From: Clytia hemisphaerica
Taxonomy: Eukaryota; Cnidaria; Hydrozoa; Leptothecata; Clytiidae
DNA: 64,000 bases
Direction of reading: 5' to 3'
Assembly: GCA_902728285.1 (NCBI GenBank)
Contig: CACVBU010001140.1
Coordinates: 358,953 to 422,952, forward strand
Part shown: one piece after another, positions 4,267-45,500 of the stretch
How positions within the stretch are numbered: the first letter of the stretch is position 1
How the letters are laid out: every line of letters starts with the position of its first letter
Translations under genes and position numbers: made by a program
The notes under the pieces: generated by a model
Seen by the model: the letters and a program-made list of their open reading frames with translations, nothing else
What the model was told of the DNA's origin: nothing
Database searches by the model: none

Positions 4267-5637
4267 TCCAACGTAGAGTGTCTCTCCCAATCATTTGAAT
4301 ATACTAGCAAGTTGCTGTCGCTATGAATGCCCCGCTGATAGCAGATATTAGCCCAGAGGAACTTAGCCATGAAGAGAGCAAGGGAATCATAACCAGACTA
4401 TAAATTGGTGAAATGAGTCTTCATAGAAAGTGCTCAATGTTACTAGAGCTGTTTAAAGTTAAGAAACACGAGCCGATGGTTTAAAATTTCCTCAATAAGA
4501 TCCATACATAACGAAAGTGTCAATCCAAAAAAAAAACATGTTAAATCTACACTTTCTGATGCAAAGTGACCTGAATTAAAACCATTACTGTACAGGTTTC
4601 GCAACATGGGGCAATTACATATTGAAGAGTAAGCTCGCCCCTGTCTCATCTAATTAAAGCCACGTGTCAAATACAACCAAAAAAACAACCATTTCGACGC
4701 TCTTGGAGCTTGATTATGGTGTCAATTTCTATCCTTTTGTATTATCAGCATCACAATAATTAGCGGCACAAAATTTTTTGAAAATGGTTTGAGAAGCTTT
4801 GTATTTCATCATCAGATTGATATTTCTGTCGAAATTAGTCATTTTGTCAGCATAAAGACAATAGAATAATTGATTAGATTCATATCTCTTAAACTGCCCT
4901 TCCCAATCTTACTTTTATACTGACAAGTTCTATCTATTCATACTAAAGGCATCTTATTCAGCATAATTAGAATATTTGGTTTAACAAAGCTTACAAACAT
5001 CATACTTAATGACCCTGTCAATATTTTTGTCAAGAAAATGACTGGTTACTCAAAGGTCACTTTTTAGTATTCTCAGGACTTGATTTATGGACATCCATCT
5101 CTTTTGTCTTTTTGAAGATAACACAGGTAGCTTCGTTGCCACCTCGTTAAAAGTATAAAATGAAACAATAGATTTTGATAATATACCACGTGGGAATAGC
5201 TTGCTAACAACGTCAAAACTTCGACAAAAGTCTCTGTTGTTCTACTCTTCTCAAGTCTTTTATCTATAACAAAGATAACAGAGGCAAAATCATCGTCAGC
5301 TTGTCAAAACTCCGACTAATATTTCTAAATTTTGACTTAAAAGTGTCTAATAATTTTAGAGAGTGTCACATTCTAATTTCCATATTATTATTACTCTCAA
5401 CTTTGGAAAGCTATTTTTTTCAAGTCATAAAAAAAATTATTGGAGTGACAAAAGGGATTCAAAAGTATACACGCAGTTGAAATTCTGCATTTCAGAGTTG
5501 AAAATGTTGATAAAATATATTACAAACTTGTAAAAAAAATTCGAAAATAATTTCTTCGTGCATTAGGAGTAATGTTCAAGCTCTATTAATCTTTTTAGCT
5601 AAATAATTCAAAGAAATAAAATTATGACGGAATATAA
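4267..5637. other. interior of the 9-bp-TSD element, no gene seen
   Basis: AT-rich non-coding DNA between the left inverted repeat and the insertion site of the two-gene transposon. No domain-bearing open frame was found on either strand. Confidence 0.6.
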
Positions 5638-6001
5638 TACGCCTTTCCCGATATCGATTGCGCAATCACAAATTCACGGAAATACAACACGAAAGCGAGG
5701 CTGGGTAGGGTACATTTTCAAAACATCATGGCGGCGAGCAGTAGCAGATTGACTGAGAAAGAATTTATCTTCACAGAACTTGTAAATAATGTAAATAAAG
5801 AAATTCCTATTGAAATTATATACAATGAAGAAGATGTTGATATGTTTATAAGTGATTGTCCACGTTCTGTTCCTGTAAATACTGTAAATACTTCAAAAAA
5901 CCAGCCCATAACAACACCACTCTCAACAACAACAACACAAACAAGTCGACGGAAGCACCCTCCTCGTTGGGGACTTGTATACCTGCGACAAGCAGAAACG
6001 A

Positions 6002-9000
6002 ATGCTTCCCTCATATCGGGACCGGCGAAGCAAACCTTTGGTTTCAAGTCGATGTCTCGATATACCCCCCAAATCAATGCCACGACAAGCACGCTTCGTT
6101 TTTTGGCTGAGCGAGGGCCATAACCCGGCGTTTGACCCTCGCAATATACATATGCAAGCCGGGGACATTGAACCAAATCCAGGACCAACACCTACGATTT
6201 GCGGCTCCTGCAACAACCCAATTAAGGTTAATTCATCACACCTGATGTGCTCCATATGTAAACAACGGATCCACAAACAGATGAAATGCTCAGGCACCAA
6301 ACGCACACTCTTAGACAGGATCGTCAAAGATGGCACCCCTTGGCAATGCAAAACCTGCAGAGAAGAACCCCCACAACAGAATACAGAAAACCACTGCACC
6401 AACTGTGGGAAAACGCTCACAGCAAGATCAGCTCCACTCACTTTTCAAGAACAGAACTGCAACAAAAAGTGCCATTCCTCACAAAAGTGTAGCAACATCA
6501 GCAGATATATGAAGCAGAAGTCATGGAAATGCTATCTTCACGGTGGTCGAAGACCAGACGTACAGGAACCACAAGAGGGAACAGTCAACCAAATGACTAC
6601 CGACACAGTCACCAATGATGATAAGCTGAAATGCTGCGGATGCTCCAAACGGATGAAAAAACCAGCGGATAATAGTATACCATTAAAATGTGATGTGTGC
6701 AAAATGCACTGTCACAAAATCATCAAATGTTCCGGCCTATCACGGGATGCAGTTACGGCTATAACTTCACAAAATGGTTCGTGGACATGCAAGAAATGCT
6801 CATCTGTAGAGGAAAGAGAATTCACCAAAAACTATCCACAAGGGGAAACAGTGTCAGAAACCATCAAGGGTGAAACATGCGAATACCTAAAGATACTTCA
6901 ATGGAACGCCGATGGTCTGAACACCAAAACAACAGAGCTTCGAGAAAGATTAATCAAAGAAGATATCGATCTTTGTATGATCCAAGAATCAAAGCTCCAA
7001 CCTCACATGGAAAATCCAAAACTCAAAGACTATGTACCTATCTTCAGATCAGATAGAAAGGGAACAATAAAAGGAGGCGGACTAATAACATATGCAAAGA
7101 AGAGTATAGTCTTTGAGAAGATAGGAGAATCCTCAAACTCGGGAACAAATTCCACAACCCTTCGTGTCAAAATGGGCCCAAAGAAATGGTTGACACTCAC
7201 AAACGTCTACACTCCACCTGAGAACAGCATAGGCCAAGAGATCAAATTCAACCCTACTGAAATCAAGATCGACAAAGATAGCATTATCCTTGGAGACCTT
7301 AATGGACACTCGCCACTCTGGGACTTTACATACACACCAGACGAAAGAGGCGAGGTGATAGAAGACTGGATTTTGACCAATAACCTATCCATCCTCAATG
7401 ACGGTTCACCTACACGAATGAACCCTACAACAGGCAATGAGAGTACACCAGACGTATCCCTGGTCGGTGAGCTTTGGAGGAACAAATGTGAATGGCAAAC
7501 CGGTACCCAAATGGGTAGCTCTGATCATTTACCAATCAAAGTCACAATCAACGCAAAGGTGACACACCAATCTGTCTTCGGTAAACCAGGAAGATGGAGA
7601 CGAAACGGTGTCAACTGGAACAACTTCAGAAACGAAGTAGAAGACCATTGTCAAAATCTCTTAGAAGAAAATAACCTCACCAGAAGAGTTGCAAGATTCA
7701 ACCAAATCCTGACACAGGCTGCAAAAAAACACGTGGGAAAATCCAAACCTGGAAGGAAGATCAGCTCCTTCATGACCCCCACCGTTAAAGCTGCCCTAAA
7801 AAGACGGAACAACCTGAGAAAGAAAGTCTCCACGCACCGCAAAGAGTGGCTTGAATCATGCAAACAAGCACAAGAAGAAATCACCAAAGCTAAGGAACAA
7901 AGCTGGAAGGACCTACTTGAATCTTCAGCGATGGAAATCGACGACACCAGGATGTGGAAGATAATAAAAAGCCTAAACGGGTGCCCTGAGACAAATTCTC
8001 CAAATGAGGCGATGAGACACAAAGGAAAACTCATCACATCAAACAAACGTAAGGCAAATATATTCGCAAAACACTACGCAAACGTCAGTAGACACAAGTT
8101 TACCAAGGAGGAAAGGAACATAAATCGAGAGGCCAAGAGGAGAATTCACTCAACTACGGTAAACAACGAATATTGTCAAGACTTTACCAAAGACGAGTTG
8201 AAAAAGGCGATAAAAGAAATGAAGAGAAAAGGGGCACAAGGCCCTGATGAAATACCACCAACTTTTCTGAAAGAATTGGGAGACAAAGGTCTTGACGAAC
8301 TACTGGGAATCTTCAACAACTCAATGGTGTCCGCACACTGCCCACAGATATGGAGAAATGCAATCATAATCCCGCTACTGAAGTCTGGAAAGATTGCGAG
8401 CGAATTAGCATCATATCGCCCAATCAGTCTTACATCGTGTGTAGTGAAACTGCTAGAACGCATGATAGCAAATAGACTGTATCACTTTGCAGAAACCAGG
8501 AACATCTTAAACCCAAAACAAGCAGGGTTTAGGAAAGGACGCTGTTGTGACGACCAAATAGCCAGGATTACCCAAGCAATCGAGAATGGTTTTCAAGCCA
8601 AAAAGATGCAAAGATCAATCCTGGTTCTACTCGACTTCTCGAAGGCATACGATATGGTCTGGCGAGAAAGACTCCTTCTATCTATGATAGAAAAAGGAGT
8701 CCCAATGATTTTCATCAAATGGCTCCACGGATTTCTCCAAAACAGACAGGCAAAGGTAAAATTCTGGGGCACAGAGAGTAACAGCCACAACATCAAACAA
8801 GGTTTGCCACAAGGCTCGGTACTATCACCCATCTTATTTCTGTTTTACATCGACAATCTCGCGCAACTCCTCCCAGAATCTGTCATCACAGCCATGTTTG
8901 CTGATGATGTCAGCATCCTAGCAACAGCCGAGAACCGAGAAGAAGCACAAGAGAAGGCCCAGGAAGCAGTTTCCATTGTCTCAAACTGGGCAAAGGAATG

Positions 9001-9574
9001 GAAACTTCTATTAAACGCTGGGAAAAGTGAAACAAGTTTTTTTAGCACATGGTCTAAAGAAGCAAATTGGTCTCCAACCATCATCATCGACGACAAGCCA
9101 ATAAAACACGAAAAGACACCACGCCTACTTGGGGTGATTTTGGATCGCCTGCTAAACTTTGGACCCCACGTAGAAAAGCTCACAAAACAACTGACACCAA
9201 AGCTACGAATGCTAAAAGCAGTTTCAAACTCCAAGTGGGGATGGCGAAAAGATTCCTTGGTGAAAATCTATCTAACCCACTTTGATAGTGCCATCCACTA
9301 CGCCGGGTTCACATGGCAACCCGGAACATCAACCACCCACTTGGCCAGCCTTCAAAGACTGCAAAACAGAGCGTTACGAATAATCACTGGTCAATACTCA
9401 TCCACCCCGGTTGAAGCATTACGCGCGGAAGTTAACCAACCGAGCCTCAACACTAGAGTAAAGAGAAATGCAATGATTGCAGCTGAAAAAAATGTCATCG
9501 TCAACCCGAAAACCATCCAAGAAGACTGGCCTACGAAACGGCAGTTAAACCAAAACCACAAAGCAAAAGAGTGA
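6002..9574 (+). CDS. non-LTR polyprotein: 2A-like, PHD fingers, endonuclease, RT
   Basis: The open frame runs from the first in-frame ATG at 6,002 (about 1,190 codons). Residues about 50-61 form a 2A-like motif. Three PHD-like Cys/His clusters follow (about nt 6,190-6,360, 6,390-6,540 and 6,640-6,800). The APE endonuclease starts at about nt 6,885 with LQWNADGLN and keeps the catalytic landmarks IQESKL, LGDLNGHSPLWD and SSDHLP. The RT carries GFRKGRCC, DFSKAYD, QGLPQGSVLSP and the FADD box at about 8,897-8,908. The frame ends at 9,574 by a frameshift, since coding resemblance continues in another frame towards RNase H. The product would bind its RNA, nick target DNA and prime reverse transcription. 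Confidence 0.88.
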   Translation: MLPSYRDRRSKPLVSSRCLDIPPKSMPRQARFVFWLSEGHNPAFDPRNIHMQAGDIEPNPGPTPTICGSCNNPIKVNSSHLMCSICKQRIHKQMKCSGTKRTLLDRIVKDGTPWQCKTCREEPPQQNTENHCTNCGKTLTARSAPLTFQEQNCNKKCHSSQKCSNISRYMKQKSWKCYLHGGRRPDVQEPQEGTVNQMTTDTVTNDDKLKCCGCSKRMKKPADNSIPLKCDVCKMHCHKIIKCSGLSRDAVTAITSQNGSWTCKKCSSVEEREFTKNYPQGETVSETIKGETCEYLKILQWNADGLNTKTTELRERLIKEDIDLCMIQESKLQPHMENPKLKDYVPIFRSDRKGTIKGGGLITYAKKSIVFEKIGESSNSGTNSTTLRVKMGPKKWLTLTNVYTPPENSIGQEIKFNPTEIKIDKDSIILGDLNGHSPLWDFTYTPDERGEVIEDWILTNNLSILNDGSPTRMNPTTGNESTPDVSLVGELWRNKCEWQTGTQMGSSDHLPIKVTINAKVTHQSVFGKPGRWRRNGVNWNNFRNEVEDHCQNLLEENNLTRRVARFNQILTQAAKKHVGKSKPGRKISSFMTPTVKAALKRRNNLRKKVSTHRKEWLESCKQAQEEITKAKEQSWKDLLESSAMEIDDTRMWKIIKSLNGCPETNSPNEAMRHKGKLITSNKRKANIFAKHYANVSRHKFTKEERNINREAKRRIHSTTVNNEYCQDFTKDELKKAIKEMKRKGAQGPDEIPPTFLKELGDKGLDELLGIFNNSMVSAHCPQIWRNAIIIPLLKSGKIASELASYRPISLTSCVVKLLERMIANRLYHFAETRNILNPKQAGFRKGRCCDDQIARITQAIENGFQAKKMQRSILVLLDFSKAYDMVWRERLLLSMIEKGVPMIFIKWLHGFLQNRQAKVKFWGTESNSHNIKQGLPQGSVLSPILFLFYIDNLAQLLPESVITAMFADDVSILATAENREEAQEKAQEAVSIVSNWAKEWKLLLNAGKSETSFFSTWSKEANWSPTIIIDDKPIKHEKTPRLLGVILDRLLNFGPHVEKLTKQLTPKLRMLKAVSNSKWGWRKDSLVKIYLTHFDSAIHYAGFTWQPGTSTTHLASLQRLQNRALRIITGQYSSTPVEALRAEVNQPSLNTRVKRNAMIAAEKNVIVNPKTIQEDWPTKRQLNQNHKAKE
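6152..6187 (+). other. 2A-like ribosome-skipping motif (GDIEPNPGP)
   Basis: The codons at 6,161-6,187 spell GDIEPNPGP, matching the D(V/I)ExNPGP consensus of 2A peptides. Skipping would occur between the G at 6,182-6,184 and the P at 6,185-6,187, releasing a leader of about 61 residues from the PHD-EN-RT protein. 2A-like sequences at the N-terminus of APE-type non-LTR polyproteins have been described in several invertebrates. Activity here is not shown by the sequence. Confidence 0.75.
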
Positions 9575-9608
9575 GCTGGGTATCATACTGTCAAGAACTG
9601 AAGAATGA

Positions 9609-10604
9609 ATTACCAGAAATGATGGAACAAAGAAAAGAAAGCCGATTGTCTTCTTTGAATCTCCACCTTGGACTACAACTCCAAATTTAAAGATCTTCTC
9701 CAATCTGTACGACATCAAAAGAACTGACCCGGAAGAAACGAAAAGAACCGCTGCAATACGAAGAATCCACGAACTTGATGCACAATTGGTAATCTACACA
9801 GATGGATCAGCAGACGCGGGAACCTTTAAAGGAGGAGCAGCTGTGGTCATTACGCAAGGTGATCCAGAGGATCCTACTGTCCTCCAAAACATCCAAAGAA
9901 AAGGAGCCGAATATACGTGCTCGTACGAAGAAGAAGTCGACGCAATGAGAACGGCAACAACATGGATCAAAAGCAACATCACTGACAACATCCACACACT
10001 GATTTGCACAGACAGCCAGTCACTATGCCTGGCACTGACAAATTTCAACGAAGAAACATTAAAAATAAGAGAAGACGCGTCAGAATGCCCCGGCAAAATC
10101 ACCATCCAATGGGTCCCTGGTCATTCCAACATTCCAGGGAATGAGTTGGCTGACGCACAAGCCAAGGCAGCTACAGAGTCCAATTCGGATAAAAGGCCAA
10201 ACTCGTTCCGGAGCGCATCAATGATGATTAGAAAAACCTTCAAAGACGAAGCAATCTCCCATCAACGAATCGCAAAGGTTTACAGCAAGTATTCGAAAGA
10301 AAAGAAAGAAAAGGAGAAAGAAGTCAAAAATAGAGCTGACCAAGTCATGTTGGCCCAACTACGATCAGGACACTCAAAGAACCTTAAAGCATATGCCAAC
10401 AGGATCGACGAAAATATCGATGCTCTATGTCCCGACTGTGGCGAGGAACCCCAAACCATCGAACACTGGTTCACAAATTGTCCAGCAACACTCGCCACCC
10501 GAAGGCAACATTTTGGGGAACACATCACGGACATCGACTTGTTGACAAAGGAACCTGGCAAGTCGGTCGCCCTGGCGAAGAGTTACTTCGGGGCCGACCT
10601 GTAA
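9609..10604 (+). pseudogene. RNase H and C-terminal zinc cluster of the non-LTR element, out of frame
   Basis: This continues the polyprotein in a different frame. An RNase H domain starts at about 9,789 with VIYTDGSAD and carries YEEEVDAM, CTDSQSL and the late VPGHSNIPGNELAD motif, so the acidic residues are present. A CPDCG...EHWFTNC cluster follows at about 10,430-10,485, typical of I/R1-group elements. Two frameshifts (near 9,520 and 9,610-9,660) separate it from RT. There is no ATG of its own at a sensible place, so it was part of one long ORF. Stop at 10,602-10,604. Confidence 0.85.
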
Positions 10605-12260
10605 ACAAGTCACCGATAAACACACACACACACAACAACACAAACACAATCTGATGTTCAAAAGACTGAGGTAAAATGGGGAAAATCTTTTGCTTCACTA
10701 CCTGCATTTGGGATGAAGGAGATCGACACTCATAGAAAGAACAGTGGTAAAACACCTGGAAGTGCCATCATAAAAACAAGAGATAGAGGACACAAGTTTC
10801 AAGCAGAAAGATATATCTCATCGAACAATATATATTCTATGGAGAAGGATGGACACATACTTTTTAAAGCCATCAGCAAAGCCAGTATGAAAGACAATAA
10901 ATGGAGCTTAACAGTTAGTATAAATAAAATTACAAGCCAGGTAGTATCTGCCAATTGTACTTGTGTGGCAGGGAACTCTGGCTATTGTAATCATGTGATG
11001 GGGCTGCTTATGGAGATTGCTTTATACTCACTCAAAGGACTCACAGAAATCCCTGAAGAAGTAGCCTGCACCAGTAGGTCACAACAATGGGGTGTACCAG
11101 GGAAATCTAGACAAGCCCAAGCACCAAAACTCCCTGTCAAGGATACGACCATCCAACAGTTGCCAAGCAAGAAAGGGGTATCTTCCACGTTGTACGACCC
11201 CAGAAAGGAGCAGCATGCAATAAATACCTATAATGCTATAGAAACCTTCAAACAAAGACTGTCAAATGTTGACAAGAGGATTGGTTTTGTTTGTGCTATT
11301 CCACCACAGGATGATTGGGTAGAATTGCGTGATACGCCACATGGGAGTTTCATTGTAGGTTCACCATTGGCTTGTCACTTGTATCCTAAAGGATTTGATG
11401 TTGCTGTTGAAACTAATTTACTTGAATTTTATGAATGCTCTGTCATGCACCCAACCTTGGTTGAAAATGTTCCTTTACCTTTTAAGGTGATTTCAAAGGA
11501 AAGCCCATGCATTCCTGCATTTACAATAAATGAAAGAGAGAGGAAATATTTGTATAGCATAATGAAAACCAAGTTAGAAGCCAGGAAACTTGAACGCGAA
11601 ACAACAAGTCAGGCTTCTTGTGAATTGTGGCACTTAACAAGAAAACATAAAATTACATCCAGCAAGGCTCACAAAGTTCTTATTCGTCAGAGAAATTTTG
11701 AAAATTTGATCACTGAATTTACCTCACAGAAGAAGAATCATGAATTGCCAAAAAGCATGAAAGATAATTTTGAACATGGTAAACGGTATGAGCCGATTGC
11801 GAGAAAGCTTTATGAAAATGTAATGAATTACCATCTTAAACATGTATGTAGTGTGCGAGAAACCGGTTGTGTGGTGCAACCAAATTTACCCTGGCTATTG
11901 GCCAGTCCTGATGGCCTTGTTATAGATTGTGAGGAAATTGGGTTGATTGAAATAAAATGCCCTAAGACAAAGGCCAACCATACTGTTGACCAGTTGCTAG
12001 CTGATGAAAAATTTTATGTTGGGAAGTTGAAAGATGGGACATTATACTTAAAAAAGGCCCACAGTTATGGATACTACACTCAAATTCAAATGGCAATGGG
12101 AATGTGTGGTCTTTCATTTTGTGACTTTATTGTCTATACTTTCAAAACAATTATAATCATTAGAACAGCTTTTGATAAAGAATATTTTACAAATCTTGTT
12201 TCAAAAATAAACAAATTTTATGAGAAATATTTGTTAAAGCATATTTTGAACAACAAATAA

Positions 12261-12598
12261 GTGTTTATATTATTAAAATATGAACTTTCAGGAAAACTGG
12301 GTGCTAATATTCGATTGACTTAGCAATTTAAGGAAAATGTCAATTGCAATGTCAATGACAGTTGCAGTTTATTCAAAATTCATTTAGTCTCTTTGAAATC
12401 TAAAAGCTGAATTCAAAATATTTTGCATCTATCGCTTAAAATGTTAAAAAGATGATATTTTTACAGCACTGTTGAATTATCCAATATTTCTATATATTCT
12501 GAGGTAACAAAAGATTTATGAAAAGCACTCAGTTTTGGTTTTAAATATCAAAAGTTTTTAGTATTTTACGATAAATTTGAACAAAATTCTTAGTGTTT
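12261..12598. other. spacer between convergent transposon genes
   Basis: AT-rich, non-coding. It must hold the 3' ends of both transposon genes, and no clear shared terminator structure was noted. Confidence 0.6.
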
Positions 12599-14246
12599 TT
12601 ACTCCTCAGTATCTTTTTGAATGAGAGGAGGCATACTATTAGTGAGTAAGCAGCAAACTGTCCATATTTGATTAATAGAGCCATGTAAAGTCAATGGTAT
12701 CTCATTTCTCAAAATTCGAAATTTTTTGATTCTTTGGATAGCCCTCTCAACGTGGATTCTTACTGAAGCAATAGTTTGGCTTTCTTTCACCTCAGCAGCT
12801 GTTAGCTGGTCCCTTCCTTCTAAAAAGCATGGTATGTTTAATGATACTCCCAAAGGTGATAGGTCGTCTGCAACTGTAAAGCCTCTATCAGCCATGACAC
12901 TATCCTTACCAGAGTCCCATTGATTTTGTAAAAATCCTGAACGACGTACAATCTGTTGATCAGAAATTGACCCATCAAACAATTCACTTACAAATGTTAT
13001 TGCCCCTGATGGGTCAATTCCGACCAGACCTTTGTAAGTGACATGAGATTTGTAGGATGAATATAAGGCACTCTGAATAGCTAATGATGAAGGCCTTTGA
13101 CAGAATAATTCTGTACAATCGATTATACACCTTGTAGTTGGATAAACTCTTTTGAAACTCTCTGGCATAGTCTTATTCACTTGTTCTCTAGTTGGCCAAA
13201 TGGGTAAAGACCCAAGTGTAAAGTAACAAAAATTTGACCAAGTTATGATGTATCTCGAAACAGTTGTTTTTGATAACTTGAATAACCATCCTAAATGGGA
13301 CAATGTGAAGCCATTCCTGAGCCAAGACAAATATAAAAAAAACTGTTCTTCGTTATCTAAAGGGTGCTCTTCCACGTTTAAGATAAGAAATATCTTCTTG
13401 AGAATGTTTTTCATTTGACATTCGCCTAGATGTGTCATAGAACTTGATATTTGATGACTTCTCTCCTGGATTTAGCAATTCTAACAGTGCTTTGAAAGAT
13501 TCAACAGATATACCAGTAGCTTTTATAAATAATTTTTCATCTTTACTTATATTTTTATAGGAATACTTTTGATCTTGTAATAGTTCAATTTCTTTCTTAA
13601 GATTCTCATTTTCATTATGCAACAATTGCTGATTTTCCCTCAATGCTACATTTTCTAATTTTAGCTCTTCGACTTTAAGTTTAAGGATTTCCACCTCAGT
13701 GAGTTCAGGTTCAGGGTCAGGGGTAATAAAGTTTTCATATGAAAAATCATCTTCCCAGTTCATTGAAAGGTCCTCCTCCTCTTGGGTTTCAGAAGAATTA
13801 TCATCATCAGTTTCGATTATGCTTTCAGACGAGTAATCAATTGGGGGTGGTCTTTTTCGTGGTGATTTACGTTTTGGTTTTTCTTTCGGTTTCACATGCT
13901 CAAAAATCGTTGGTATGGCACCACTCTTGACTGTTTTTCGACCAATTCCAAGGGAAACCTTTATGTCTTGACTATCAAAATGAAATTCGCAAATACGAAC
14001 GTTTTTGTGATTGATATCAAAGTTATCTTTGCCTCCTTTTCGTCTGAATTTTGAAATAGTTGCTACCCAGTCTTGTCTGATTTTGAAAAGTGATATATTC
14101 GTTTTATTTCCTTTAGAATCTGCAGTTGCACTTTTACATCCTGGAATGCAACAGTATTTCCCATGTCCACCAGATAGATTTTTAGCTGGACGAGTCTTTT
14201 TTGATTGGAAGTATTTTTCTTCATTAGCAGTGTTTTCTTCACTCAT
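12599..14246 (-). pseudogene. THAP + coiled coil + HTH + DDE_4 transposase, one frameshift
   Basis: Starts at the ATG at 14,246. Near the N-terminus a THAP zinc finger (CCIPGC ... CEFHF) would bind the inverted repeats. A basic and acidic linker and a leucine-rich coiled coil (about 13,540-13,700) follow. A frame change near 13,360-13,370 leads into a helix-turn-helix (LFKLSKTTVSRYI) and a DDE_Tnp_4 core with IIDCTE, MADRGF and HVERAI as the presumed D, D and E. The family is related to bacterial IS5/ISL2 transposases. All catalytic residues are retained, so the single frameshift is the main defect. A sequencing error cannot be excluded. Confidence 0.85.
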
Positions 14247-14806
14247 CTTATAAACGAAGTCAACGTTGAAGTGATACACACTACACAGTATCTCATTGCT
14301 TCACACAATCATTTTCCTTGTGTAAGGTGTGTGTGTGCCTTTCTCACTATAAATCAGTCTCAAAAATATTTCTTTTTCTTTTTGATAAAAGGTGAGAAAC
14401 ACTCGAAACAAAAGGAAAGAGCAAATAAACAGGTCTCTTCTTTTTATTCATGTTTATAAAGATAAATAAAGTGCTTTTCTTTGGATGGGAGTAATTTTTG
14501 TAGCAAAAAACAGTGATTTACGTGGTTTGTTTACAAAATTCACCCTACCCAGCCTCGCTTTCATGTTAAATTCCCGTGAATTTGTGATTGCGCAATCGAT
14601 ATCGGGAAAGGCGTATTTCGAAAAACAGGCGGCAACGAAGCTCGCTTCAAAGAGACAATAAAAGATAGATTTCCAGTCGTTTATATGTTCATGATTTAAA
14701 CATTCTCTGCGGTGGAGAGAGCAGATAAACTCGATAATCCAAATTTATCTGGTTGCCGGTCGTGGTCGCCATTTCTGGTCGATGTTTAGAAACTCCCTGA
14801 ATGAAC

Positions 14807-22215: not shown

Positions 22216-22414
22216 ATTGTTGGTTGGCCGTTAAGAGATAGTTCTGTTTTCAGGTTGACATGGTTCTGGTCTTAGATGGTTTTTTTGTGAAACCACAACT
22301 AGCCATCAGCTGGTCTAGTTTTGGGATGTCAATGTTTCTGTTGAATAAGGTTGAGAGGTATGTTTTTAGTTTATTAGATGTTTTGGTTTCGTCGTTGCAG
22401 TTTCTCGAGAGACT

Positions 22415-28363: not shown

Positions 28364-28429
28364 GTGTGCTCGCAGCTCGGCTGTACTTGTCTTCGCAACA
28401 TTCGCAACAAGACGCATTACGAAAACAAG

Positions 28430-29569: not shown

Positions 29570-29663
29570 AACCGTAACCGACACTCTAAACCCTTTGATG
29601 ATAACAACCGCCTTTACAGACCGACACCCAATTTTGCCCATCCCAATAGATACGAATACCTAG

Positions 29664-33757: not shown

Positions 33758-34682
33758 ATCATTTTAGTTGGAATTTAAATCAACTCCTTTAGCCATATTA
33801 CCAAGATCGGTCATTATGTCGGAATCGTCTGCTTGATGTATGATGATTAAACTGCGTAACGCACGATTTGTCGTTCGAAACACGTTCTCGTTAGGGTTTT
33901 GGTACCTAATCGTTGCTTTCCATCAGTTGAGTGTTCAAGTTTGACAACTTGACCATAGGTGTAGGTCCTGCAAATTACAGAATCTACTTTTTGAAAGATG
34001 ATTACGTCGCCAACGTTGATGGAATCACTTTTGAACCATTTCGTTTCGTGCATAAGTTTTGGGACATGGACCATGAGCCATGCTTCAAACCATGCTTCAT
34101 ATATCTTCTAATTTTCCTTCATTACTTTTGAAGGATTTTGAGTTGTGATCATGATGCCATCAGGGTTGCGATCGTTATTTCGTCCAAGCAGCAATCGGTT
34201 TGGCGTAATCAAATTCATCACTTCAAAGTCTCCGGTGATATTACCGACTGCCAGTGGAATGTTGTTGATTGTGTTTGCAATTGTTGTTGATAGGGTCTCC
34301 CACTGCATAAGTGATAATCTTTCATTGTGGGCGTTCTTTTGGATGGAGATGTCCACTTCTTTGATTTTGCGTTCAACCTTTCCATGCATATTGTGGCCTT
34401 GTACGGGGCACAGTAGACGATATCGGCTTTCCGTGAAATCTTTTGCGCAATGCATCTTGGGTAATCATTCGGGGAGGAATCAAAACAAACGCGAAAATGG
34501 TAGCTATTAAATGTGGTCTGGTGGTTTAGATGGTTGAGTTTTTCACTATTTTTATTATGAATATGGGGATCTAAATATAATATTTCTTTCTTTAGATAAA
34601 AATACAATAAACACGATAAAGCAATCTTAAAACAGTTATTTTTATAACTACAATAAAACAGTTATTTTCATAACTACATAGC

Positions 34683-37600
34683 ATGATGGCAGCAAACTTT
34701 GATGCAAAGTTTCTTTTGGAAAAACTGAATCAAACTTTTCCTGACAAGGGGTTCAAGATTGATGGCAAAGAATTTGTCTTTGGGAAATGGATATTGAATG
34801 ACTTGAGAGCTTTTTTGAAAGTAACAGGACACTACAAAGGAGAGTCAAAATCCAAAAAAGATGATGTTGCATCGAAAGTTGAACAGATATGGAATCAAAT
34901 CAGAGGAGAGGCTATGTTCTCAAGTGATGATATTTCAGACAGAGATCTTCTTGGCCTGCTGACACCCCCACCGACACCACAACCTGAAATTGTTCAACCT
35001 TTGTCAGATTCAGTTTCAAAGAATTCCAACCCAACAGAGACTAAACCGGGTATGACAAAAGATGATTTAAAAAAATGGACGGTCAATGACCTCCAGCAAT
35101 ATCTCTCGGACAGATGTATTAATAAATCTGGGAATAAAGATAAACTTATCGAGAATGTATTTGGTGCATACAAACAAAGGTTACCAATAACTTTCACAGA
35201 CCCACAACAGGAGCTTGAGCAGGTGAAAATAGAGACAAAGGCAAAACTTATTCTTGAAAATGGAATGTTAACTTTACCAAATCCCTTGACAATCCAAGAT
35301 GATTGGATTGTAGCACCTGCAAATCTTCCAGATACTACTTTCATCCAAGTAAATAAATATTTAATTGACAATAATGCCGGAAAGGCTTTCAAAGGAGGAA
35401 AAAGTTTACTGGATTCGAAACATTTGAAGTCTCCTGCAGTTCATATGCTCAGTCCCAATGTTCGTTATTGCTTTGTGCAAGCATTGTGTCATCCCAAGCA
35501 AAAAAAAACTGATAAACCATACACTGTTTGGGTTATCATCCACAAAGACAGAGGTGATGTGATCAATGGCAATTGCAGTTGTGCTGCAGGGTAAGAAAAT
35601 GTATATAAAAGTTTTTTTTCATCTTGACTGAGGTGGTATATAAAGGAAGTGTTTGAGTGAGTAAATCTTGACAGTTGTTTTCATAGATTTTATAACCAAT
35701 GGAAAAGTCCTTATGTTTGTTTGTTGCATGAATTTTTCAATGTCTTACAATAGAATTTGTCCCTCTTATTTAAAAAAATAGGTTAGTGTTCAACGGAAAA
35801 GGAAAAGAGGAAATTCTTTGTGTATATCTTTATATTTTTCTTTTATATTTTAGAGTCTCCGGATATTGCAAACATGTTGGGTGTTTACTATGGTACCGGG
35901 TGTGTCAAAAAAAACGCCCCTATTTTTCGATTTTCGACGTGCAAATTTCTATCCAACATAGGCAAGTGAAATTTTCAGGGAGGATTTGAAATTTAATTTT
36001 TAACCCTTGCTAAGAATTATACATTTGTATGTTCATTTAAAATGACTTTATGACGATTTGGTTGACTTACGTCAATTTTTCACTGTTCACAGATTTTGAT
36101 AGTTAAATTTTCCCGTATGGAACAAGAAACCAAAATACGCTTCGTTTTTACCTTCTTATTTTGTCTCACTACTTTTAAAACACCAAAATGGCATTATTTT
36201 TTTGTTTCATAGGTTAAATTCTGTTCTAAGGTCAATAATTGATAGATTCTAGCTAGTTCCAGTTAGACCATTTTTTAACGTCGATTGCGACGACAAAAAA
36301 AAGACTCTCAAATCGTCAATGATGCAGAAACGAACTGATGTTATTACTTTTTGTGCATAAAAATCATTAGGTTTTCAATTCAAGTGTTTTGCAAAAAGGT
36401 AAAGAAGCAGAACAGAGTTTGTAGAATATAATATGATCGATTAAATAATGGAAATGAAACGAATTGATGAAATTTTGTTTTGCTAAGAAATGCTTTACAT
36501 TGCCTTGAACACCTTGAGATGTTACCATAACACTGCGAAAAAAATCCAAAACCCCTTTAATTTGAAAAAAAAGATAAGTTTGACATAAAAAGATACATCT
36601 CGCTTCAATTTCAATTTTACTTTTACTTTTACTTTAAAACTGTTTTTACAGCTGATAGGAAAGCTAGAATGTAAAGGTTTAACGTCTTCTTTGACGTCAA
36701 TTAATTGCTTCTGTGAACAACACAAAAAGTAGTGATCTTGCGAGAATGTTCATAACTTTTAATTTATTTGAGGCAACTCTGCCAAACTTCTAGAAATGTT
36801 TGGAAATAAAATGTACAATACTCACAAAAAAAATCCAGGAGCCCAACTAAATAGAAAAATGTACGTCAAAAATCGAAAAATAGGGGCGTTTTTTTTTGAC
36901 ACACCCGGTATATTGAGCAGGAGGTCAGGCTTGGAAATAATAAAACGTGTACTTCGCAGAAACAAAAATGGGGTGGACCTTCCAAGAAACAACAAGGTAG
37001 GTGGATATCTTTTTAACCAAAAAAATATTATGATTTTTGTTTATTGTCTCTGACCCAGTTATTTTTTGAAGCCAAATTTTTTTTCTAGCATTACATCAAC
37101 CTGACACAATGGACAACATTGAGATGAGAAAACCGAAAGCCAAAAGAACACTTGGTCAACCTACTCAATCACCAGCTAAAAAGCAAAGAGTGAATACTCA
37201 TGCGGTACATGCACCTTTAACTGCACAGAACATTGATGAGCTGGCAGATATCACTAATGGAAATTGTGGGCTGGTTAAATTAATGAGGAAGCCAGTCCAA
37301 CAGAAAGAGGAGGTCCCAGAGGAGGTAGCATCTTATGTTAGCGTTGAAACAACAGAGACAAATTTGCCAAGAAATGTTCAAGAAGTTGTTGACAATTTGA
37401 AGTCAAATGAGACTTATGATGATTTTCTATTTAAGATTTCGATAACCGATAAAGAACAGGCTGCAGTCGTGTCAGCAACCGAAAATCAATCAAAAAATCA
37501 ATCAATTCCGCATTACCGCATCCAAATTTAAGGATGCTGTTAGAAAGATCGATGATGGAGGCAATGTACGAAACCCTGACAGGTGTAAAACTATTATTGA

Positions 37601-38246
37601 TAATGTAATGGGGACAAAAACATGACCAAGGGAAGGTTCAGTTGCCGCACAAGGATTAAATTGGGGTATTGATAATGAGTCAGTTGCAAGAAATCTGTAC
37701 TTCAAGAACAACAAATCAAAGCATCGTAGACTTGTTGTTAAAGAAACTGGATTTTTCATTGATGTACAGCATCCTTTTTTAGGTGCTAGCCCAGATGCAT
37801 TGGTTTCTTGTATTTGCCATGAAGAAGGATTATTAGAGATAAAATGTCCCTGGACATTACGAGGTAGTACCACTTCCGAGTATGCAGAGCAACCCCAAAC
37901 TTGTTTGAAGAAGTTAAGTTCAGGGAAAATAACAATTAATCGAGAACACGAGTATTATTACCAAATGCAACTTCAAATGAAGTGCACTAGTCGTTCATGG
38001 TGTGACTTTTATGTTGTCTTTTCGAAGGACACATTCTTGGAAAGACAATACTATGACGAGACTTTCATGGTGCATTGTATATTGAAAGCCAGTATGTGCT
38101 ATGAAAAAATTATTTTTCCTGAGCTTTTACAAAAAAGGGAAAAAGAAACCAAGCAATGTGTTTCAGAACTACTGTCAGAACTACTGGATAAATGTGAAAT
38201 TGCCAACTATGATAGTGATATTGATTTTCAAATTTTTGCTATTTAG
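34683..38246 (+). pseudogene. SAP + SWIM + YqaJ nuclease gene with introns, interrupted by a MITE
   Basis: Exons are 34,683-35,590, 35,854-36,996 (including the MITE at 35,896-36,908) and 37,089-38,246. Introns at 35,591-35,853 and 36,997-37,088 have GT..AG ends. The N-terminus has a SAP-like fold signal (KWILNDLRAFLKVTG) and a second SAP motif (KWTVNDLQQYLSDR, about residues 125-155). The SWIM finger is split by intron 1 (CSC in exon 1, CKH in exon 2). The YqaJ core has RITASKF, ESVARNLYF, GASPDAL and LEIKCPW. A frame change near 37,500 and an in-frame TGA at 37,623-37,625 disable it. Compared with copy 1 it adds SAP motifs and introns. Confidence 0.82.
35896..36908. mobile_element. mariner-like MITE (TA TSD) in the nuclease exon
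   Basis: The left end is CCGGGTGTGTCAAAAAAAAC and the right end is its inverse. The inverted repeats are about 45-50 bp including GCCCCTATTTTTCGATTTT. TA flanks lie at 35,894-35,895 and 36,909-36,910. Excision with one TA restores the nuclease reading frame. No transposase. TA TSD and end sequence fit the Tc1/mariner group. Confidence 0.82.
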
Positions 38247-39438
38247 ACTTAGACACTTTTAAAGGTTTGCAAAATATTACATTAGAAGACTTTCGATAGA
38301 AAAGATTGGTTTTCTTTAGCATTTTGTCAATATTATGAGCATCTTGAGAGCTTTTAATTTTCAGGTAATAAAAGACTAATGTAAATTATGTACTTTTTTT
38401 ATCAACAACCTTTTTGTTACCATTTCAAAAAAACTATTGCAAGAAACTCCAAAGCATTTAGTCCCCAACTTTCTTTTTAATTTTCTCTTTAAAGTGATAC
38501 CTAAGATACTAGTTTGTAGAGAACTTTTGCTCATAGAATAGCAATCTCATCATACAACTTTAATCTAAATCAAAAATCTTGAATTGTTTCATGTTTTCTT
38601 GGTTGTTTTTCTCATATTTTTGAAAATATCTTGTTGCCTCTCCACAAGTGTTTCTTTCGAATTGACTTTGAACAAAATTTTAGTGAAAGCTTTTATCGTT
38701 TTAAGACACCAATTTGATAGTTGGTTCGAGACCAACCTCTTTTCTTAAAAAAAGGGAAGCTACTGGAGCATCTGACCGGTGTTTTAACAAATAAAAGCTG
38801 ACACACTTCGTAAAAATCTGTCCACTTGAACCACAATCATAGTACGCTTTAGGAATTTGAAATTCAGACTTGTATCATAGAATTTTGAAAACGATTTTTG
38901 TAGAAAATTAATTCCCCAAAAACATTCATCAATAAAAATGATATTGATTTTCAAATTTTTGCTATTTAGACTTAGACACTTTTAATGGTTTGAAAAATGT
39001 TACATTATAGTAGGACTTTTGATAGAAATTCTAAATTTGGCCAAAAACAGATCCTTTAAAATTTCTGAAAGTTTTAAGATTGATCAGTATTTTAAGCACA
39101 GGTTAGATGCTCCAGTAGCATCTCTTTGTTAAAAGAGGCTGGACTTGAACCAACTGTCAATTTTGTGTTCAAAATAATGATCTGACAAAAGTGAACCTTG
39201 GTACATGCTCCAACCCTTTCATGTACTTTTTATAACTTTTTCTAGATGAAAAGTTCAACTTTTTTGAGCAACTATAACCATAAACTTTACAAGCTTTACT
39301 CTACAAACAGTAATACTAAGGGAAATGTTAGATAGGCTGTTTTAAAAAGGTTAGTTTGTTAAGGGTTAAGAAATAACAAGTTTGTTTGAATTTTACACGG
39401 AGGCTGTCCCGGCATGCCATACAGTTTTTAAAAACAAT
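38247..39438. other. downstream of nuclease gene: foldback and duplicated gene end
   Basis: No further gene. The last coding bases and 3' flank of the nuclease (38,215-38,300) are repeated directly at 38,937-39,020. Between and after them, AAGCTACTGGAGCATCTGACC (38,757 on) and its inverse (about 39,100-39,125) are parts of arms of about 70 bp of an inverted repeat spanning roughly 38,700-39,175, so a foldback element probably caused the duplication. Confidence 0.6.
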
Positions 39439-39447
39439 TTCTACTAC

Positions 39448-40609
39448 GGGTTGGTCTAAAAAGCAGGGTAGCCAATACACGGGTTTCGAATTAAATTTTT
39501 GCTTAGCTTTAGCTTTGATCCCATGTAAATTTGCACGAAAAATATCAAGTAAACAGAACGAAAATTGGCCGTGTATCAAGCAATTTTAGCTCATTTTTCC
39601 ATTTTGACAGACTTTATGGGTCATTATGAAAACAAAAAACATTAAAATAAAAAGTCAATCGTTTAATCATATTTCTTTTATCGAATTTAAAATAGAAAAA
39701 CATCTTTTGAATGAACACCTGGCTTTCAAAAGAGAAGAAAGGAAATCTATCAACCTTTTATAAGGCATTTCCCCTTATCGCTCCTTTTATCTACTTGATT
39801 TTTTCTCTCGCGCCAGATTTAATTCGAAACCCGTGTATTGGGGTAGCCAATTGGGCTAGGTTGTGGGGTACCTAAATATTTTACAGACCAGAATAGAAAT
39901 ACCGAAAATGAATGCATAGAACCACATTTTACTGACCAGGGAGCACGAATCTGATTGATACTTAGATTGATCATGTATGATTACAAAGATAAACAAAGAA
40001 AAAATTAACACGTGTTAATGCACGAGGAGTAAGGAATAGAGCTTCATTATAATAGAGCTATTTCAAAAGACTTTTTGTACCTATTATAAGCTGCCATATT
40101 AAAAAGTTTTGAAAGGAATTAATTGTTTGAAACATCTAAACATGATATAAATTAAACAATAGATTCAATAACAAAGGATTGTTAAGATATGACAAGATTA
40201 GAGATCATATGGCCCAAAGGCGATTCCAAAGCTATTATCATCGAATTACAGCTTCACGGAAATAACAATTTAAAACATAAATAAAATCTAAATCTAAAAT
40301 ATTAAAAACTGTTTTGTATATATTTTTTATTCGGGTCTGTAAATTTTCAAACGAAGCCAAGAAGGAAGACAAAATGGCGCCAGGTCTCTTGAGAAGTAAC
40401 AAAGTTCAGTACCTTTGTAAAAAAGGCTATTGTGGCTGAAGTTCGAAAGGAATCTTAAATTTTATTACATGGAATCATTAACAAGATGTTGTGTAGTTAT
40501 TTCCACATGAAAACAGGTTTCAGATTTCAAAAGTTTAGGCAAAAAGAGGTACCCCATAACCTAGCCCAATTGGCTACCCCATTGGCTACCCTGCTTTTTA
40601 GACCAACCC
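39448..40609. mobile_element. 9-bp-TSD MITE, itself split in its left inverted repeat
   Basis: The ends GGGTTGGTC and GACCAACCC belong to inverted repeats of about 62 bp including AAAAAGCAGGGTAGCCAA and a GGGCTAGG block. The flanks carry TTCTACTAC (39,439-39,447 and 40,610-40,618), a perfect 9-bp TSD. The left repeat is interrupted by the smaller MITE 39,478-39,835. About 800 bp without it, and non-coding. Confidence 0.85.
39478..39835. mobile_element. small TA-flanked MITE nested in the 9-bp-TSD MITE
   Basis: Inverted ends CACGGGTTTCGAATTAAAT, 358 bp, flanked by TA (39,476-39,477 and 39,836-39,837). It lies inside the left inverted repeat of the enclosing MITE, whose right repeat shows the uninterrupted form apart from about 3 bp. 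Confidence 0.82.
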
Positions 40610-40740
40610 TTCTACTACTATATACAATATAACACATAAGTTTATTCATGACTTGGGTTATATACCTTTTCTGTTTCACTTTTTTGGGTATTCTCTAGCT
40701 AGCAAGTAAAATGATTAAAAACAATACTACAATAAATAAT

Positions 40741-42566
40741 CTACAATAATGGAGTAGCTAAATTATTTAAAGCAGAAATAATAATAAAAATATCATCAAG
40801 TTTGTTTTTTATTGTCACAGGTATGGCACCTTGAAGTATCTTAAAGTCTTTAATTCTGGCAATGGCTCTTTCGACGTGTATTCTTGCTTTTGCTATATCA
40901 GATCCTTCATCACAATGTTTCTTTGAAAACCGTACTTTATCTTTCAAAAATGAAGGTATAATCAGTTTTGCACCTTTCCCAACAACCAAATCCCCTATAT
41001 TGAATCCTTTGTCAGCCATGATTGCATCCCCAGGTAGAAGCTTTTCCAGAATTCCACATTGCTCAGTTATGTGCCGATCTGAAGCAGATCCACCATAGGC
41101 TTTCGATAAAAAAGTTATGGTTCCAGATGGGGCGACACAAATAAGCTTTTTCCATGTGTTTTTTGATTTATAAGTAGAATAAGTTTGTGCCTGTGCTTTG
41201 GCCATAGTAGGCTTTTCAATTTGACCTTCAGTACAGTCAATGACACCAATTGTGCTAGGGTACATTTCAAAACAATCAGGTAACGATGCCTTTGCTTCCT
41301 CCTTTGTTGGCCAATGTATGAAGACTGCAAACTCTTTGGCAAGAAAAGGTATCCACGCTTTCAGGATGCTTGACACAGTACTTTGAGCAATTTTAAAACG
41401 AAAAGCCAAATCAACTTCTGTTAGCCCCATTCGAAGTCTCACAAGTGTTAGGAAAAACTTTCTCTTGTCAATTTACAAGTTCGTGCCCTTCCTAGGGGTA
41501 TTCCTTTGTTCCAACCAACCCTAAGGGCAGATGCTTTGACACTTATGCGTTTAAACAACCATGTAAACAATTTGTAATTTTGAATGCCTGTATATACTGC
41601 CATTAGTTTAGGCTTTGATTTGATATCAGAAATGCTAAATCTTTCAAGTTTTTCCTTTTCAATTGTAAGCTTATCATTATCTTTGGAAAGCTTTAGTATC
41701 TTCTTTTCAAGAAGTTTTATCCTCTCCTTAAGCAATTTCTCAGTTTCTTGTAAACTGTCAATTTTTCGAATACAATCAGGTCGACAGCACAAAGATTTTG
41801 CTACAACAACATCTTCGGCAGGTATAAAATATGTGTGTTCATTTAAAGATGGTGTTATGGTTGGTGATTTGGGTTTACGTTGCGCACGTCTGGTTCGCTT
41901 CTTAAGTGGGAATATTGTAGACCGATCCATGCTGGTTTCCTCTTCTTAGATGGCTGAGAGATGACATAGCCTTTCATGTACAATGTTGGAACATTACATG
42001 CCAAGTGCGAATAATAGCCAGCAGTAAAATGGTTGGAGCAAACAACAGTTGATGACGTAACTTGGAAGGATTTACGACTGATCCTCTTTTCCCACATTTC
42101 CCGATCATCCTTGTGACAAGAATGCCAGCGTAGAGTTGCAACACGAGGCATCACTTTGAGTTTGCTGAAGAAAAAGAGGAAAGAAAAATTAGGTTGTTGG
42201 CTATATCTTGCTGTTATTTTTATATTGTTAAGTATGTAAATCATTGGTTTATTCTACTTCTAAAATTAGATAGCTAGTAGCCTAGGCTAGGTTTGGTCAA
42301 AGATTACTAAAAATTCCTTCCTAACTTAAGCTATTTCTTACCTTATTATATGAGATAACCCTCCCCCCCACAGCCCTGCCCTATCCTGTCGATCTGCCTG
42401 ATGCTTGGGGTAAGCTATAACAGACATGAGGAAGAAAGAGAATGATGCTCGCTAGTCTAAGACAAGCAAACATAACAATATAAACAACACAGACAGAATC
42501 TACATACTTTTTAGCACTTCTAGTGTTCCCACAGCCATATACTGCACAATGGTCATTTCCACCCAT
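40741..42566 (-). pseudogene. THAP + coiled coil + DDE_4 transposase with one intron, frameshifted
   Basis: Exon 1 (42,566-42,508) encodes the start of a THAP finger (MGGNDHCAVYGC). A 343-bp GT..AG intron (42,507-42,165) follows. Exon 2 continues with the rest of THAP (VCSNHF). A frame change near 41,930 leads to a coiled coil (LLKERIKLLEKKILKLSKDN) and another near 41,465 to the helix-turn-helix (FKIAQSTVSSILKAW) and the DDE_4 core with VIDCTE, MADKGF and HVERAI. The catalytic D, D and E are all present. Same architecture as the transposase of copy 1, but diverged and with an intron. Confidence 0.82.
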
Positions 42567-45500
42567 CTTTAAAGTATTCTTTTTTACAGAAAGATTAAGT
42601 TAAAGGTTTCTTCTAGGAATAATAATGAGGTAACAATAAGGTTTCTTCTAGGATCATCTATCACTTTGTTGCCTTCGAAAGAGTGAATTTCGCAAGATGG
42701 CTGCTATGTTTTGATTTCGTCTCCCCGAATAATTACCCACAATGCATTGCGCAAAAGATTTCACGGAAAGCCGATATCGTCTATTCAAAGTCAACGTTTC
42801 TTTTCCCCTTCAGTTGGAATTTGATGTCGCGGAAGTTCAGTTTCATGTCTTTACATCCTTTGACTAGTTGAGTACCCTCGTCACAAAGCAGTTTGGCAGG
42901 GAACCCATGGTTGTAAGCAAATCGAGTAAAGGCAAGAATAAACGCTGGTGCTGAATAGTTGTCCATTAGTTTGATTGAGATGGCAGATGTTGAGCAACAG
43001 CATAGAACCAATAGCCATACTTTGACGACTGTACGTTTGTAGTGCAGGTGATATGCTTCATATGGACCAGACAAATCAATCTGTATATGGTAAAATATTG
43101 GTGCTATTGTCAAGTTGAAGATGGAGACAGGGCCCATTGCCATGTCAACTGTACGTTTCATGAGGTAACGACATCTCTCACAAGATTCACGAACTTGCTT
43201 CACCAGTTGTCTTCCTTCAATGATGTAGGCTTTCATCATGCATGACAAAGCGATGTGTTGTCTCAATGCCAGAATGTTTTGCTGTGGGGTGATTCCAATG
43301 AACATCCATAACGATTGATAATGCAATTGGTGAATTTTTCTACAAGATGGGAACACAAAACGAAGTTTGACTCAAGTCTTTCATGGCATTTGTGTATTTT
43401 CCGATAATCGTCACTTCTTGCTGTGGAAGGATCCGACCAGTGTAGATAAGGATGCCATTATTTTCCTTTGATATCTTCTGGTATTGGGGTGGTTTGAGAA
43501 ACTTCTTGACTTCCAGAGTACCTTTACGAAAGAAGTACTCCTCTGCATCTGTTTCTTTGCGAGTATTTGATTTCCATATCTTCATGCAGATGAACTTCAG
43601 GACAATGTTGAGGATACGGATCACTCTTTGAAATCTGTGTCTGTTTGGGTCGACGATGTATTTGGAAGATTGATATCTCTTTTTGAGTTCGGAACATCAA
43701 ACTGGTTGATGGATAGTTCTTTCTTGGCTTCGACTATCTCCTGATTGTCCAATGTTATCTCATTTTCACGTTTTACTGGAAATTCAGAGATAGGTAGTTA
43801 CATCCAAGGTTGACCGTTTATCCATTGCGAGTGTTGATCAACGTCACTGATTGTTGCACCCTTTCTGGTGCCAACATCAGTAACCATCTGTTTCGATCCA
43901 ACATGGAGCCACCGATCCTTGTGCGTGAAGCGATGAATCTCAATGAGTCTGCTTCTAACCCATTGTTTCAACATCTTTTGCACGTTTGAAATCCAATGAA
44001 GAGATATCTGGCTATCTGTGAACTTTAAGGATGATTTAAATAAGGATCGGAATGAGCGGCGAACAATCTCTCCTGTGTGTGCATTGATTAGTGATGCAAG
44101 TAGTTCTGCACGTTGAAGAGTCAGATCCTTTGGAACCATCCTTGATTTGGCAAAAACCAATTGAGAAGAGTATGATCCATCTTTACGAAGAAAACGACCA
44201 TAGATGCAGATGCACATTGTTGTATTGCTAGCATCACCAAAGTCCAAGGTCTCCACATCGAGTGAGACAGCATCAGCAGGTACAACAAGTCATTGGAATC
44301 TTAACTGGTCGATTTTTGTGATTGTGTCAAAATGAGACAGTCAGATTGGTCTTAGCTCATCTGGTATTGGGTCATCCCAGTCAAGCTGTCTATCGCACAA
44401 GTCTCGTAGATCGATCTTCATGGCGGCCACCAATGGTGCGATTTTACCAAGAATGTAGAAAATTTCGGCTACTTTAGATGAGCAGTGTCGACGAGTTAAA
44501 ACATTTGGAATTACATTCATGGTTTGTATATTCTTCTTCCCTCTACGTTTCGGTGCAAATTTTAACTCTTGGATTGTTAGTGATAGCTCGTCACTTTTTG
44601 AAAACCACTTCATTCCTCCGACGCCAACAGAGACTCCGTCTTCAGTCAGATGCGATGGTGGGTCTTCTCCAGATATAGTGATGCCTTTCAAATTGAAAGC
44701 ACCTTTTGATGTCACAATCTGTAGTTGGTCAGCTCGTTTGTGTGCTGACTCAATGGTGTGGTCTCCTGTGATACAATCGTCTACATACACATCATGCCGG
44801 ATGATTTCATTGACTTCTGTATACTCTTCCTTGTTCATCTCAGCAATGCGTCTGAGGGTGCATTCTGATTGGTTCCCACTTGATTTGATCCCATAAATTA
44901 AAGTCTTTATTACTTTCTCTCTTGGAGTCTTGGTTGGATCTAATTTCTTGCCAAAGGTAGCGCTGAAGTGTCCAATGGTCAGAATGCAATTTAACTGTAT
45001 TGTACATCTTGCTCACATCACTATGAATTCCTATTGGACGAATTTGAAATCTGATCATGATCTCTTGAAGCTTGTTAAGATAGTTACTTCCTTTTGCCAG
45101 GATGTCGTTCAGACTCAGTCCTTGATGCTGTTGCTTGGGAGGCGTCGAAGATGATCCGGCATGAGTGCTGATAGAAGAAGGCTTCCAAACAGCTCGCCAA
45201 GGTATGAAATTCTGTACGGTACTTGATTGCAGCATTTCCTGTTGGGATGATGGAAGATTTTGAATGTAACAAACATACCCTAGTGAGTGGAGCTTCTTCT
45301 CAGATGCAAGTATCTCGAGCTTGTCCTGTTTGTTCTCAGGTTTTCCAAGTTTCCTGAGCTGTTGATTGTAGACTTTCATGACAATGTCCTTGTTTAGAGC
45401 CAGTCTTGATGGCTCTTTGATGAGCGGAAACATGGCAGTTACAGTCTGAGTGTCGGAATCGATTGTAATCGATGAATTGATGAGTTCTTCCTCAGCTTCC

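Follow-up and report, generated by a model that had tools for sequence, protein, structure and literature searches.

A SWIM-YqaJ nuclease gene inherited together with the transposase gene in ISL2EU transposons of Clytia hemisphaerica

The 64,000-nucleotide stretch of Clytia hemisphaerica DNA analysed here (hereafter the window) holds a transposon, element 1, that is no longer functional. It belongs to a young ISL2EU family (PHIS superfamily) of cut-and-paste transposons, present in few copies in this hydrozoan. Besides its transposase gene it carries a second gene, whose product, as read from its sequence, joins a SWIM zinc finger to a PD-(D/E)XK nuclease of the lambda-exonuclease type with the active-site and 5′-phosphate-pocket residues kept. 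Across many diverged families of this one genome the two genes have been passed on together, and the most probable reading of the second protein is a functional exonuclease, predicted to act 5′-3′ on the ends that transposition makes. What the second ISL2EU gene does is an explicit open question in Han et al. 2015 (PMC4482050). The present data turn a domain label into a constrained prediction, namely a 5′-3′ exonuclease on 5′-phosphorylated ends that is inherited with the transposase.

The original prediction had drawn a single element at 5640..14613, bounded by 72-bp inverted repeats. The element is real; its length of 8,974 bp does not stand, the native length being 4,273 bp once a nested long interspersed nuclear element (LINE) is removed. 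The repeats are likewise present, with their length corrected to 87 bp (79/87 identical positions; a separate arm detection gave 90-nt arms, 91% complementary). Even with 3 mismatches allowed, a 19-base core of the terminal inverted repeat (TIR) is confined within the window to these two repeats (mean by chance 0.01), and the terminal repeats of element 1 are also found at other copies in the genome. The convergent arrangement proposed for the genes is borne out, with the nuclease on the + strand and the transposase on the − strand, both between the inverted repeats. The parts of element 1 are as follows.

5637..5638, no strand: left target-site duplication AT (target A/AT/T; AATT at empty sites)
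5639..5725, + strand: left terminal inverted repeat, 87 bp
5728..5943, + strand: first 72 codons of the SWIM-YqaJ gene (MAASSS start), upstream of the LINE
5944..10631, + strand: nested LINE, foreign to the transposon (Pfam Exo_endo_phos_2, RVT_1, RNase_H)
10647..12260, + strand: rest of the SWIM-YqaJ gene up to its stop codon (Pfam YqaJ 5.5e-20)
10956..10994, + strand: SWIM zinc-finger ligands CxC-x7-CxH
11628..12110, + strand: YqaJ / lambda-exonuclease domain (catalytic D at 11910, E at 11949, K at 11955)
12599..13438, − strand: downstream transposase frame, cut off from the THAP frame by a frameshift near 13.36 kb
12638..13123, − strand: DDE_Tnp_4 catalytic domain of the transposase (Pfam 4.9e-47)
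13214..13366, − strand: HTH_Tnp_4 (Pfam 7.8e-10)
13353..14246, − strand: upstream transposase frame, ATG at 14246 (THAP domain at 13902-14153, Pfam 5.9e-10)
14528..14614, − strand: right terminal inverted repeat
14615..14616, no strand: right target-site duplication AT

The LINE, with an endonuclease-reverse transcriptase open reading frame (ORF) at 5975-9574 and a separate RNase H ORF at 9786-10604, is flanked by a 15-bp duplication (5929-5943 = 10632-10646). By eye it also shows repeated CxxC zinc-finger-like motifs, and an (AC)n tail stands at its end. Without it, the nuclease gene is a single open frame of 609 codons. Five of seven other copies (L089, L090, L091, L092 and L095) are exactly contiguous at this junction, and the remaining two (L093 and L094) also lack the LINE and differ by a few bases there, so that among the copies compared the insertion is private to the window. 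A single frameshift near 13.36 kb splits the transposase of element 1; an intron between the two frames is excluded, since the homologue P0040 spans both of them and copy L089 reads through as one open frame of 549 amino acids. The window copy is therefore doubly dead, by the LINE inside its nuclease gene and the frameshift in its transposase. L089 keeps both frames open and is 99.5% identical to element 1 across the whole element, which marks the family as young. Nine coding loci of this family were recognised, and lone terminal repeats stand at six further places.

Pairing of the two genes was surveyed across the C. hemisphaerica genome (417.4 Mb, 951 contigs). As 84 of 206 nuclease candidates and 139 of 229 transposase candidates were scored, all locus counts are lower bounds: at least 89 nuclease matches merged into at least 71 loci, and at least 143 transposase matches into at least 131. 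Among the loci found, 58 of the 71 YqaJ loci have a DDE_4 locus within 5 kb, and 56 of these pairs are convergent, two lie on the same strand and none is divergent, where 0.36 pairs within 8 kb would be expected by chance. Accidental pairing is excluded by these counts. In 9.5-kb stretches taken around 20 loci, the convergent pair is present in 15; L095, L099, L101, L103 and L108 have no transposase inside the stretch, that of L103 lying just beyond. Protein distances of nuclease and transposase are correlated (r 0.91 over 24 pairs with enough sequence; r 0.85 over 19 pairs after removal of near-duplicates); correlations as high as these did not arise in 5,000 label shuffles. L089, L097 and L102 represent three diverged families, each with both frames open. 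YqaJ nuclease and THAP/DDE_4 transposase are coupled in the window and in other copies, as had been proposed, and the search that the original prediction had named as its own refuting test, for further copies with both genes between the same repeats, returned L089, L092 and L093, as well as L090, which has one truncated end; among these four only L089 has both frames open.

The product of the + strand gene matches Pfam YqaJ and a viral alkaline exonuclease family (7.1e-08), and it contains the SPDG and EIKC motifs that had been pointed out. The PD-(D/E)XK fold and the D, E, K active site of the YqaJ / lambda exonuclease superfamily are present, and the YqaJ domain recurs in the second ORF of L089, L097, L102 and L107. 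The proposed SWIM finger is supported by C-C-C-H ligands in 32/32 alignment rows having letters there; Pfam gave no SWIM match for the window protein itself at E up to 1, and matched SWIM in 23/31 members of its alignment. A PHD module occurs in 1/31 aligned nuclease members, and a SAP module in L107 and in a second ISL2EU element of the window, element 2, described below. Two alignments were used, one of the query with 32 of 39 homologues (seven fragments left out) and the other of the window piece with 30 homologues. Viral YqaJ relatives are distant matches, with 23-38% identity (best 80 of 92 confirmed loci). In the predicted structure of the nuclease protein, its middle part (residues ~118-160) falls below 50 in the predicted local distance difference test.

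Equivalents of D119, E129, K131 and Q157 are kept in 24-25/25 loci, against a domain median of 0.39, in a set that leans to paired, better-kept copies because of how its loci were picked. Element 2 is one member; 14 more were chosen among paired loci, and the remaining 10 come from the 20 fetched, of which L099, L101, L103 and L108 were set aside along with six loci that are near-identical to element 1 or derived from it. Residues were surveyed by alignment and profile search, since a regular-expression motif scan missed the nuclease families that carry EVKCS or TPDG variants. The second refuting test that had been set, loss of the YqaJ catalytic residues across copies, found them kept with few exceptions. 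Comparison of nonsynonymous with synonymous rates between near-identical copies was not used, as there were too few changes. The kept equivalents of W24, R28, E85, D119 and K131 argue for a predicted 5′-3′ exonuclease activity that starts from 5′-phosphorylated ends. The product of the − strand gene matches the THAP, HTH_Tnp_4 and DDE_Tnp_4 families over two frames in the window, in agreement with the domains first read there; the D, D and E residues are kept in 24/24 loci, and L089, L097 and L102 carry all three domains in one frame. That these elements are ISL2EU with a competent-looking nuclease can be held with very high confidence, and it is highly probable that the nuclease belongs to the mobile unit and is catalytically used by it.

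Element 2 is a deeply diverged, decayed ISL2EU copy with nested insertions.

34415..42782, no strand: element 2 (terminal repeats 59/63 identical)
34686 to ~38.2 kb, + strand: SAP-SWIM-YqaJ gene of element 2
40741 to ~42 kb, − strand: convergent DDE_4 gene of element 2

Its SWIM motif, read by eye, is interrupted by an intron-like stretch, and the nested insertions lie at ~35894-36910 (TA-flanked, with short inverted repeats) and 39448-40609. The host of element 2 is a Pao/BEL-like retroelement (Peptidase_A17); Pao/BEL-type long terminal repeat retroelement pieces with Peptidase_A17 extend over 42784-48381 on the − strand, one stretch being 96% identical on six other contigs. Elsewhere in the window, LINE-like frames lie at 20081-23407 (−) and 28364-32720 (+), with a Pfam reverse transcriptase match in 31425-32720 and the remainder read by eye, and a run of N occupies 61756-62137.

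The flanks of element 1 had been described as TA; this does not stand, as the duplication is AT at A/AT/T, with AATT at empty sites. The TA reading arose because the second letter of the AT duplication merged with the terminal A/T of the element. Six relatives of the host retroelement of element 2, 96% identical over 203 bases of its flank, lack the insertion and all read CACAATTCAAAG; since these empty sites read AATT, the target is A/AT/T. The left AT copy of element 2 is now GT. Element 1 has AT at both duplications. L090 holds a third copy of the repeat that flanks element 1, with no insertion, and the sequence there at the right junction is CCAATTTTGAAA; this junction alone is clean, because the left flank in the window lacks 18 nt of the repeat. 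This flanking repeat recurs within L090 at 1-393, 5746-5830 and 7440-7551; in this locus an element-1 copy inserted into its CTAAATAATTCAAAG site, as an L096-type element seems to have done too. Exceptions to AT in the element-1 family are L093 (AA on both sides), L095 (GT on the left) and C412 (TT at the right end). L109-L128 and further places hold ~150-bp foldbacks of two element-2-type terminal repeats, with flanks as expected for insertion into AATT; among 20 such derivatives, one of which has an unrecognised left end, AATA stands on the left in 17/19 and TATT on the right in 19/20. The nuclease-side repeat is shortened in L090 and L091, by about 15 and 17 bp. In L090 flanking host sequence is gone too, so the loss there looks like a later deletion and was not counted in favour of the nuclease.

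A mechanism can be outlined for how the nuclease would serve the element. The THAP and HTH parts of the transposase would bind the element ends, and its DDE domain would carry out cleavage and strand transfer, by which the element is excised and inserted. The nuclease would be recruited to the same ends and digest 5′-phosphorylated strands 5′-3′ at the breaks left by transposition. Its likeliest site would be the donor gap, the most attractive substrate because 3′ tails start homologous copying; such tails would bias repair towards recopying the element from the sister or homologue. Donor-gap resection, which the original prediction had suggested, fits the predicted 5′-3′ polarity, and action specifically at the donor gap is a tentative proposal, somewhat doubtful as it stands. 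A fuller version, in which a transposase-delivered, SWIM-targeted exonuclease would resect the gap and thereby switch repair from end joining to homology-directed copying, is speculative and rather unlikely. If it were true, a cut-and-paste element would effectively be copying itself without an annealing protein of its own, and KolobokE would be a second, independent instance of this strategy. Internal-deletion copies share 6, 2 and 2 bp at three joins, which is consistent with interrupted copying; such copies arise in nuclease-free transposons too.

Several observations weigh against a nuclease that is an active and constant part of the element. Among the YqaJ loci found, 13/71 have no DDE_4 partner inside 20 kb; one of them is L095, which derives by internal deletion, and another is the C128 locus, where a different query found a weak transposase remnant (L098). 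Conversely, 73/131 of the DDE_4 loci found have no YqaJ partner, a number that cannot be read as nuclease-free elements because 84 of 206 nuclease and 139 of 229 transposase candidates were scored. Two open frames lack catalytic residues, P0011 (586 amino acids) the D, and P0013 (608 amino acids) both D and K; L152 has G at the catalytic D, L154 has K at E85, and L108, outside the 25 loci, has V at E129. Decay could account for these sequences, or they could be variants without nuclease function. PHIS chemistry does not depend on an enzyme of this sort, since Spy, the sister group with a single ORF, transposes (PMC11304231). Copies per family, obtained by division from the numbers of Han et al. 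(PMC4482050), are ~146 for ISL2EU versus ~242 for Spy and ~193 for Harbinger. A benefit in copy number, as first suggested, is therefore unsupported, the published ISL2EU values being no higher and the element-1 family being low-copy.

The strongest rival explanation is that the second protein mainly helps the transposase to bind DNA and enter the nucleus, much as the Myb-like protein does in Harbinger; the work would then fall to SWIM (in some families also SAP), and the nuclease fold would serve as a DNA clamp. The second Harbinger ORF interacts with its transposase, is imported jointly into the nucleus and binds the TIRs, both genes being needed (PMC9179366), and the extra binding modules (SAP in element 2 and L107, PHD in one aligned member) as well as the non-catalytic P0011 and P0013 would suit such a role. 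A clamp, however, needs no kept D119, E129, K131 and Q157 equivalents, and their near-invariance makes this explanation unlikely. Of comparable, low probability is a nuclease that, in place of donor-gap resection, acts at the insertion or excision step to trim 5′ flaps or the ends of the element itself. It would call for the same predicted polarity, and Kolobok lineages carry a lambda-exonuclease-like or a DEDDh nuclease, the latter proposed to degrade transposition intermediates (PMC9587614). The ends of the derivatives are nonetheless regular, with AT in place at 17/19 left and 20/20 right ends and no erosion there, and Spy and Harbinger manage without such an enzyme.

Two further explanations detach the nuclease from transposition. 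It might act elsewhere, for instance on nucleic acids of the host, in the manner of some related herpesvirus enzymes; this seems quite improbable. Least credible, to the point of being nearly discounted, is the reading of the YqaJ gene as a passenger or as endogenous viral sequence caught by chance beside a transposase. Expansions of YqaJ and herpesvirus-exonuclease Pfam domains in a clam genome have indeed been called endogenous viral elements (PMC7826175). Against this stand the 58/71 paired loci with 56/58 convergent, the several copies with both genes inside the same repeats, and the co-divergence of the two genes. Counts of YqaJ and viral alkaline-exonuclease domains in animal genomes can accordingly stem from transposons and not from viruses. 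For the preferred explanation, an exonuclease that serves transposition, the open-frame copies in C. hemisphaerica, a laboratory animal, make the question directly testable.

Element 1 is not a new kind of transposon, as the two-gene content of ISL2EU has been in print since 2015. Han et al. 2015 describe two ORFs, one with DDE, HTH and THAP and the other with YqaJ, an AT duplication in A/AT/T, animal hosts, a mean length of ~4.84 kb, and TIRs of 6-259 bp that usually start with GG (PMC4482050); excerpts of a 2022 fish study give the same gene content. The membership first proposed is confirmed by the AT duplication at A/AT/T and by both ORFs, and the animal host, the similar length (4.27 kb here) and the 87-bp TIR agree with it. 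The Clytia TIRs differ in opening with AC or AG instead of the usual GG: they start with ACGCC and AGACG in the window, and with ACGG or ACAC in six other loci (L096, L097, L100, L102, L105 and L106). That the job of the second protein is not established, as the original prediction had put it, accords with Han et al., who also call the function of the additional ORFs unknown (PMC4482050). The word SWIM is absent from the main text of that paper, and SAP and gene orientation are unmentioned in the passages of it that were consulted. Excerpts of PMC4482050, PMC9179366, PMC12730594, PMC7826175, PMC10225492 and PMC9587614 contain no experiment on the second ISL2EU protein. In the excerpted ISL2EU literature searched, the SWIM part, a genome-wide count of pairing and orientation, the co-divergence, and the near-invariant active site and phosphate pocket were not found.

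ISL2EU is not the only group of DDE transposons with an exonuclease, since KolobokE carries a lambda-exonuclease-like nuclease and KolobokD a DEDDh nuclease (Kojima and Bao 2022, PMC9587614). KolobokE resembles the Clytia elements as a DDD/E transposon with a PD-(D/E)XK lambda-exonuclease-like nuclease, and differs in belonging to another transposase superfamily and in placing the nuclease downstream of the transposase domain, with no convergent gene (PMC9587614). Its nuclease would be an independent acquisition. Kolobok elements duplicate TTAA, and the duplication here is AT. PIF/Harbinger shares a related DDE_4 transposase and the presence of a second gene, but that gene is of the Myb/SANT type and its target-site duplication is TWA, neither of which was found in the Clytia elements. 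Spy belongs to the same PHIS superfamily and also uses an AT-rich target, but makes no duplication, inserts at AAATTT and has one ORF, whereas the element-2 target reads CACAATTCAAAG and the Clytia elements have two ORFs. Pfam scans of the element's ORFs gave no single-strand annealing protein family. The phage SynExo pair (lambda Exo and Red beta) shares the nuclease superfamily and the active-site and 5′-phosphate-pocket residues with the Clytia element, in which the partner gene encodes a transposase and not an annealing protein.

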